From: a virus
Length of the DNA: 34,576 nucleotides
Virus record (IMG/VR): IMGVR_UViG_3300017969_000056
Location: 1-34,576 of that record
Direction: 5' to 3' (one strand)
This document shows positions 30,846-33,170 of the stretch, piece after piece. Within the stretch, counting starts at the first letter, position 1, and every line of letters begins with the position of its first letter. A program made the position numbers and the translations under genes. The notes under the pieces were generated by a model. That model was not told where the DNA came from. It searched no databases and saw only the letters and a list, made by a program, of their open reading frames with translations.

Positions 30846-33170
30846 ATGCCGTTCTTCCACGGCATCATCCTCCGTATGGGTACATGGCTTCGTGTCATTA
30901 CCGGTACGGACCTTCTCGGCAACGACACTGTTGCTGAGGAGTTCGAAGGTGGGAGCTACATCCCTGCCTTCCTTCAGCACTTCTTCCCGGGCGAGTATCG
31001 GGTTGAGGTGAGGAAGATCCACCAGAAGAAGTTCCGTCGACACAACTCGTCGCCGGTTCGTACCTGGATGGACAACCCCGTGTCTGGAGAGGTCTTGCGC
31101 TTCTCCAACTCTGCAGATCAGTACACGATCCGCAGGAAGGGTGACACGGGAGGCTGGCTTGATGCGTTCAACAGCATCGGCCTTATCATCGGGAATTCCC
31201 GGAAGATGTCGAAGCGGCTCATTGAGCTGGTTCGCCTGGCATGCGCATGGCTGTACCGACCGGTTTCGGACCCTCTGGCTATCGAAGTCATCGACTACGA
31301 TGGTCCAGAGACCGATATCGACGGCATCAGTGCCATCAGCGACGAAGTCTTCTTCGAGTGCATCGACTCGAATAAGTATGTCGACCGTGAATGGCGCAGG
31401 CGCATGAAGCAGAACGTTCGCAACGGTAAGACCACCGTTGTTGTCCTGCGTATCCTGACTCCCATGGGTGAAATCAAGGGCAATGCTCTTGTGCTCCCCA
31501 AGTGGATGATGAATGGGTATGACGTTCGGACGTTCCAGCCCAACATCAAGCCGGAGATCAGCACTACTGGCTGGTACTGGATGACGGTTGATCCGTCCTA
31601 CGGTGCCATCCCGGTGAAGTCTGACGACCTCACTCACTCCATCTATCGTGGTGTGGAAGGTCTGTATGACGACGACACCATGCTGAGCTCCCTGCGGCAC
31701 ATGCTCCTTCAGTTCTTCAGTGATCTGAAGGAAGGCAAGCGTTCCGAGTGGATGGAAGCCATCGCTGACAATGACAGCGGTGAAATCATGCACGAGGATG
31801 CATTCGACAGGTTTGCGAAGAATCGCGGACTTGTTGGGCGTATTCAGCTTGCTGTTGCCCAGCTGGCTTCCGTTGGAGTCCCCTTGACTGCATCGCAGAC
31901 CTTCATGTTTCTCAGCGTGAATGGTCTGAGGAAGCAGCTTCTTGGGGATAACAAGTCCCAGGAGGTGTGGATGGACAAGGACAGGCACTGGTTCCCGGTG
32001 TCCTGGGCTTATGCCGCCCACATCATGACCCAGGAGGCTCTCCGTGTCTTCGGATTCCATATTCCGGAGACTAATCTGGGCTTCTACCATCCGGACACCC
32101 ACTGTTTCGTTGTTCCCGGCGATTACTTCGCTGAGAACTTCGAGAACCACGGTGGATACGACCTGGACGACACCATCAAGGTGCATGTCCGTCACGTCGT
32201 CATGCCGGAAGGTCAAACCAAACTGATGGGCATCTTGCTCCGCAACCCGAATGACTTCGGTGAGTGGAGCATGATCGAGCTCGATTCCATCGGGCCCGTG
32301 TACCACCAGTATGGCGAAGCTCCGCCTATGGTCAGCTACAATGAGCTCCAGAGCAAGGTTCCCCAGTGGACCGGGCTCAAGAGCCAGCTGAACATCGGAC
32401 AGCTCCCTGCAATCGCTAATCCTCCTCAGATCGGAGACGTGTTCTCTCCTGAGGATGAACAGCGAGTCAGGGCTTGTTCAGAGCAGTTTGCCGCAGGAGT
32501 CGGTGGAACGGTCATCCCCAAGATGATCTGGTACGCCCTCAACGGCAAGCCTATCCAGAACCTTTGCGCCCCTAACGAAGACATCATCGATGTTCTTCAG
32601 CAGGGTCAGGGATCTGTTGAGGACATGGAAATCATCCAGAAATGGATTGATGACACCATGGACACCCTCGAAGCAGAGCACCCCACCTTGGATTGCTTCT
32701 GGTGGAAGACCCGTTTGCCTGAACCCTACAAGGGTTGGCGTCCGGGATCCATGGAAGATTCCTCCTGGATCAAGCTTCATCTGGCCAGGGAGAACAAGGT
32801 GCGCGAGGCCATCGACATCATGACCAATTGGCTCAATGCCAACGTCACGATGCCGGACATCCTCCACGATATTGAGTGGACTGAAGAAGAGCTTGCATCT
32901 ATGGATGCTGAGCTCCGACGCAGGAACGATGTCTTCAGGAAGAACAAGGTTGGCTGGACCGACCGCTTCGTGAAGACGTTGAAGGAGTCCGACGAGGCTA
33001 ACGGTGAAGAGTACACGGATCGCAAGATCCTCCTCCTCGCCTACGCCTCGTTGAAGGCCAAGGAGCGGAACCCCAAGATGAACCACGACCAGTGGCTCTA
33101 CACGATCACCAAGCATCGTGAGCAGCCGGTCGACTGGTACATCCGGGCCCTGAGCCGCATCGAGCAGTAA
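30846..33170 (+). CDS. Putative two-barrel (YonO/QDE-1-like) RNA polymerase, diverged
   Basis: 774 residues. Three segments appear in the order and approximate spacing of single-chain double-psi barrel polymerases. The first is PMGEIKGNALVLP with Lys211-Gly212 and, after it, YDVRTFQPNIKPEI, resembling the KG barrel of cellular RNA-dependent RNA polymerases. The second is GGYDLDDTIKVHV (436-448), resembling the catalytic DxDGD loop followed by VHV in beta-prime. The third, about 110 residues later, is FAAGVGGTVIPKMI (548-561), a bridge-helix-like glycine motif, then NEDIIDVLQQG. The Gly of DxDGD is missing, so activity is uncertain. If real it would make RNA from phage promoters. Alternative: a large uncharacterised early protein. 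Confidence 0.45.
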   Translation: MPFFHGIILRMGTWLRVITGTDLLGNDTVAEEFEGGSYIPAFLQHFFPGEYRVEVRKIHQKKFRRHNSSPVRTWMDNPVSGEVLRFSNSADQYTIRRKGDTGGWLDAFNSIGLIIGNSRKMSKRLIELVRLACAWLYRPVSDPLAIEVIDYDGPETDIDGISAISDEVFFECIDSNKYVDREWRRRMKQNVRNGKTTVVVLRILTPMGEIKGNALVLPKWMMNGYDVRTFQPNIKPEISTTGWYWMTVDPSYGAIPVKSDDLTHSIYRGVEGLYDDDTMLSSLRHMLLQFFSDLKEGKRSEWMEAIADNDSGEIMHEDAFDRFAKNRGLVGRIQLAVAQLASVGVPLTASQTFMFLSVNGLRKQLLGDNKSQEVWMDKDRHWFPVSWAYAAHIMTQEALRVFGFHIPETNLGFYHPDTHCFVVPGDYFAENFENHGGYDLDDTIKVHVRHVVMPEGQTKLMGILLRNPNDFGEWSMIELDSIGPVYHQYGEAPPMVSYNELQSKVPQWTGLKSQLNIGQLPAIANPPQIGDVFSPEDEQRVRACSEQFAAGVGGTVIPKMIWYALNGKPIQNLCAPNEDIIDVLQQGQGSVEDMEIIQKWIDDTMDTLEAEHPTLDCFWWKTRLPEPYKGWRPGSMEDSSWIKLHLARENKVREAIDIMTNWLNANVTMPDILHDIEWTEEELASMDAELRRRNDVFRKNKVGWTDRFVKTLKESDEANGEEYTDRKILLLAYASLKAKERNPKMNHDQWLYTITKHREQPVDWYIRALSRIEQ

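Follow-up and report, generated by a model that had tools for sequence, protein, structure and literature searches.

We found that an intact 774-aa open reading frame, P0001 (positions 30846–33170, + strand), very probably encodes a large-phage single-chain two-barrel RNA polymerase that most likely uses a DNA template to synthesize phage RNA. Its family would be a new variant of these polymerases, for which the role of phage transcriptase is the most likely and that of an inactive enzyme or a primase less likely. The gene opens with ATG and is preceded by the ribosome-binding site AGGAGGT (30833–30839, +). It lies in IMG/VR virus record IMGVR_UViG_3300017969_000056, a fragment of 34,576 bases that was analysed over its whole length (hereafter the window); should the phage have a genome of the size seen in its relatives (about 200 kb), most of it lies outside this fragment. 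The other genes of the window are those of an ordinary tailed phage, including terminase, portal, major head protein, tail fibre, RecA/UvsX and an AAA+ ATPase. A short distance 3′ of the polymerase gene is a 134-aa protein (33497–33901, +) with a strongly acidic C-terminal tail, which had no Pfam match and is SSB-like by appearance only.

The fold was assessed with an AlphaFold2 model of P0001, computed from a 43-sequence alignment that included the homologous classes B and A′ described below (pLDDT 90.7, pTM 0.87); with nine close relatives only, the pLDDT was 52 and the fold matches were meaningless. When the model was compared with the PDB using Foldseek, ranks 1–10 were all two-barrel RNA polymerases. 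QDE-1, the RNAi polymerase of Neurospora (2j7n and 7y7p-t), gave the best matches and occurred six times (E = 7 × 10−7 to 3 × 10−5; 2j7n E = 7.3 × 10−7, prob 1.00), and the nvRNAP gp64/gp62 of Thermus phages P23-45 and P74-26 (8f72/8f5m), a single-chain phage two-barrel enzyme, occurred four times (E = 4.6 × 10−4 to 1.8 × 10−3). The next entry was unrelated (E = 0.16), and isolated double-psi barrel (DPBB) domains were among the later weak matches. TM-scores to the known polymerases were modest (0.27–0.39 over the query), which indicates that the core alone is common to P0001 and these enzymes and that the outer domains differ. Around the Asp loop, the model places strand 420–423, helix 425–430, the loop and strand 443–452, the same order of elements as around the DxDGD of QDE-1, whose context was taken from its sequence. 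A preliminary description of this DNA had proposed a two-barrel polymerase, and the fold matches and secondary structure of the model support a predicted fold of two double-psi beta-barrels, with the Asp cluster in a barrel loop. The barrel topology and the exact placement of the Asp loop are inferred from the ten polymerase matches and the QDE-1-like strand-helix-loop-strand context. In the BFVD fold search, two close public relatives ranked first and second: A0A6J5M9G6 (TMq 0.92, 37% identity, class A) and A0A6J5NTF7 (TMq 0.70, the size of class B). Both come from an uncultured Caudovirales phage and are named ‘Uncharacterized protein’, with no polymerase annotation. They were followed by an unnamed entry and by A7XX94 of P23-45.

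Comparisons by sequence gave a different picture from the fold search, which had placed QDE-1 and gp64/gp62 on top. By sequence, Pfam, PHROGs, NCBIfam and the PDB offered no acceptable match for P0001 or, apart from extra domains fused to some of them, for its relatives, and neither sequence nor profile comparison linked P0001 significantly to YonO, PF05183, PF04998 or any PDB chain. PF05183 had no hit across 11 records (E ≤ 10), PF04998 (Rpb1_5) had no match in eight related records, and PF00940 (the T7-type palm-domain polymerase) had none in P0001 in a Pfam scan at E ≤ 10. We therefore discarded a T7-type single-subunit RNAP, since PF00940 did not match and the fold matches were two-barrel enzymes. 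A short Pfam TA_inhibitor match (E = 0.03) was under its cut-off, a tblastn match (E = 1) to Halocynthia phage TSMG0031, annotated as RNA polymerase, was not upheld by profile comparison, and a match of relative L117 to a 735-kb phage was due to chance, with no motif inside the matched region. Alignment of the P0001 family profile with that of YonO, the single-chain DNA-dependent RNA polymerase of SPbeta, was not significant (hhalign E = 0.16–0.62), and profile comparison places P0001 in neither the YonO nor the RDR (QDE-1, PF05183) family; the best local pieces, DG..S and GxGxYxN, nevertheless fell on equivalent motifs. This lack of sequence-level significance against known polymerases is what an unrelated enzyme with polymerase-like motifs arising by chance would show, but such a coincidence is scarcely credible given the high-confidence model, the ten polymerases at the top of its matches and the canonical DxDGD loop in homologues.

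Those homologues all came from viral sequences. IMG/VR held relatives of P0001 with 26–56% identity, while the GTDB genome collection (genome_contigs) held none, so these searches gave no connection to cellular genomes. The DNA pattern GGxDxDD-23 aa-RxPN, run over IMG/VR, recovered the known relatives and a second protein of ~850 aa in the same phages. We refer to the P0001 group as class A and to the paralogous ~850-aa group as class B; a combined A+B profile then detected a divergent class, A′, in further large phages, where B is present and A absent. Classes A, B and A′ are homologous (hhalign A vs. B, E = 1.3 × 10−34 over 610 aligned columns; A vs. A′, E = 3.7 × 10−39; A+B vs. A′, E = 1.5 × 10−46). 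B and A′ share 17–21% identity with P0001, and each class formed one clade with 100% bootstrap in the tree, with long branches between classes. The resulting alignment comprised 17 class A sequences (P0001 included), 10 A′ and 16 class B.

The residues conserved across this alignment include candidates for a two-barrel active site. The preliminary description had located IKG at residues 210–212, GGYDLDDTIKVHV at 436–448 and GVGGTVIPKM at 551–560, and all three positions were exact. Across 18 class A sequences, I210/K211/G212, G436/G437/D439/D441/D442, G551/G553 and K559 were invariant, which indicates that the motifs are more than chance. Invariance over all 43 sequences and three classes was found for D159, G160, R202, K211-G212, K235, E237, D439, D441, R466, P468, N469, G553, D582 and D616. 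The first barrel would span about residues 160–260. DGISAIS (residues 159–165; 31320–31340, +) resembles the DGxGxxS of QDE-1 and YonO, and KSDD (258–261; 31617–31628, +), at the end of this barrel region, is by eye similar to TKSQFK of YonO. Between them lie IKGNA (210–214; 31473–31487, +) and NIKPE (233–237; 31542–31556, +), whose K211 and K235, ahead of the Asp barrel, are candidates for the two conserved active-site lysines of a beta-like barrel. The second, beta′-like barrel (about residues 384–480) would contribute Mg2+-binding D439, D441 and D442 from a shortened loop in GGYDLDD (436–442; 32151–32171, +), the candidate catalytic loop, followed by RNPND (466–470; 32241–32255, +). The bridge-helix region probably consists of the helices past residue 550, with GVGGTVIPKM (32496–32525, +), similar to IGxYSN of YonO, at the start of a helix spanning 551–566 as the candidate bridge helix. 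IIDVLQQ (580–586; 32583–32603, +) resembles IDxxK of YonO and QDE-1, at similar spacing.

The order of these motifs (DG..S, R...KG, KS, P-helix-DxD, GxG..N, ID) is colinear with QDE-1 and YonO. P0001 resembles QDE-1 in having the Lys barrel before the Asp barrel, in DG..S and R..KG, and in the strand-helix-loop-DxD context, but differs in that the sequence match is not significant, DYDGD is replaced by DLDD, and RSP precedes the Asp loop in QDE-1 where RNP follows it in P0001. By eye, YonO likewise shares DG, KG, KS, PG-helix-DxDGD, IGxYSN and ID in the same order, but has DNDGD, RSPH before the loop and a shorter interval after it. The spacings, earlier described as close to those of QDE-1/RDR-type and YonO-type enzymes, agreed in one of two cases: the first (about 227 residues) was comparable to that of YonO (K271-G272 to D535, about 263), whereas the second (about 110) was roughly double (D539 to G593, about 54), owing to an additional segment, containing R-x-P-N, that the family carries behind the Asp loop. 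The R-x-P of QDE-1 and YonO lies ~45 residues before DxDGD (R492/P494 ahead of D535 in YonO). P0001 has none at that distance before its Asp loop, and its sole R-x-P-N (R466-x-P468) is found 27 residues past D439, flanked by strands 458–465 and 474–479 of the model. Rearrangement or permutation of the second barrel could account for the displacement; alternatively, the motif may be an independent one.

DxDGD is the canonical, near-universal signature of two-barrel polymerases, and its Gly is missing in every class A and B member of the alignment. The third Asp directly follows the second in A and B (DxDD) and comes after a Gly in A′, where DQDGD or DSDGD occupies the same column block, which argues for homology of the two loop forms and, as aligned, makes DLDD a DxDGD without its Gly. 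All three Asp are thus kept, as DxDD in A and B and in the canonical form in A′. In the superfamily, DxDxD binds Mg2+ and the other barrel gives two basic residues (PMC10770324, PMC7824862), and RNA synthesis by YonO requires its aspartate triad (PMC5467207). The missing Gly had led to the suggestion of either a new subfamily or an inactive relative, and a shorter loop could indeed misplace the third Asp, leaving a catalytically dead protein with a structural or regulatory role. We consider this very unlikely, as distant sequences preserve the three Asp, two Lys, the Arg and, in the case of A and B, the GG ahead of the loop, whereas drift would be expected at a dead site. The QDE-1-like Asp context and the DxDGD of remote homologues instead favor a new subfamily, and the knowledge of the superfamily and of YonO cited above makes DNA-templated synthesis of phage RNA the most likely role of P0001.

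Several large relatives encode A or A′ together with B, 12–15 kb apart (in G001, class A at 56.5–58.8 kb and class B at 72.4–74.9 kb), and some also a third class of long proteins. These class III proteins (1250–2070 aa; L225–L228, L196) contain GQFKGEA, VKREVG, LGGFDLDDKG and RQPT..E with their order conserved, and match the superfamily profile (E = 3.1 × 10−8, 262 columns). By these motifs they are probably a third polymerase class; one guess is a virion polymerase. The phages of this group would then have at least two, and probably three, such enzymes each. Class B and class III were seen in relatives and, the window being a 34.6-kb fragment only, are not attributable to its phage. Each of twelve large records contained two to four occurrences of the GGxDxDD pattern, and the backward control contained none. 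Most matches outside A, B and class III were not polymerases but short ORFs that have the motif close to their C-terminal end, and that in L222 was in a long, unrelated ORF. In several short, unrelated phage ORFs (73–139 codons; L215–L221, L223, L224, L086, L078), a [LFI]GG[FYS]D[LI]DD peptide near the C terminus copies the class III catalytic loop and could be a binding tag, mimic or processing site.

Phages with two polymerases are already known, P23-45 and phiKZ among them. The presence of paralogues in one genome (A or A′, B and often class III) suggests that their timing would differ, with stage-specific transcription as in those phages. The P23-45 type has two paralogous RNAPs per phage (PMC10770324), but P0001 has no sequence match to them, one P23-45 copy is fused to the tape measure protein, and the genome type is different. 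phiKZ-like jumbo phages also carry more than one two-barrel RNAP, the multisubunit vRNAP and nvRNAP, but these are split into beta/beta′ subunits where P0001 is one chain, and profile comparison with the phiKZ-type beta′ C subunit was not significant (E = 0.09).

Polymerase domains of this superfamily also occur fused to NADAR (YbiA-like), SLOG/YspA-like, possible 2OG-oxygenase and PIF1 helicase domains (L053:6098-12463, L025:8198-12382, L188, L190, L117). The L117 protein (L117:3895-7125:-, 1077 aa) combines KGQ, NIKEE, HGGPDQDD and RSPND motifs with a C-terminal NADAR domain and is a further divergent class (profile E = 1.4 × 10−21). In L053, the polymerase domain of a single 2122-aa chain is preceded by PIF1 helicase (E = 5.7 × 10−37), NADAR and SLOG-like parts, as might be expected if the enzymes primed or replicated DNA, as primase or primase-helicase, rather than transcribing genes; archaeal PolD is a two-barrel enzyme that makes DNA (PMC4996933). 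Such a role is unlikely, however, because the top fold matches are RNA-synthesising enzymes and not PolD, most members have no helicase, and two to three paralogues per phage better fit transcription.

Candidate control elements, which might bear on promoter specificity of P0001, occur upstream of its gene. Three copies of a composite element, a terminator-like hairpin or T-tract followed by the palindrome TAGAGG-N5-CCTCTA, lie 0.7–1.5 kb upstream: directly 3′ of a terminator-like hairpin plus T-tract at 29332–29348 (+), a second terminator-plus-palindrome copy at 30017–30033 (+), and a third with one mismatch, 3′ of a T-tract, at 30154–30170 (+). In other phages, similar composites precede A or A′ on the strand that encodes the polymerase (L020 at 6708 and 7416, L022 at 4606, L203 at 251), the L022 palindrome being without a T-tract. 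The composite is a candidate promoter or operator and is at most suggestive of P0001 having its own promoters, as had been proposed.

Tentatively, and with somewhat under even confidence, we propose that these phages run a transcription program with three single-chain two-barrel RNAPs (A or A′, B, and the 1250–2070-aa class III, perhaps virion-carried), at least two with a Gly-less DxDD loop, and with R-x-P moved across the catalytic loop in the second barrel. The P0001 family, the DxDD loop and the paralogue set were not found in the main texts of open-licence papers; the survey tables of PMC10770324 could still contain an entry. Close relatives are public yet labelled uncharacterized, and were missed by PHROGs and Pfam. 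The superfamily to which all cellular RNA polymerases belong would gain an undescribed branch, from phages without an annotated one, and a superfamily holding both DxDGD and DxDD sites would allow a direct test of a near-universal catalytic motif. These results suggest that large phages of this group may transcribe some of their genes without the host enzyme.
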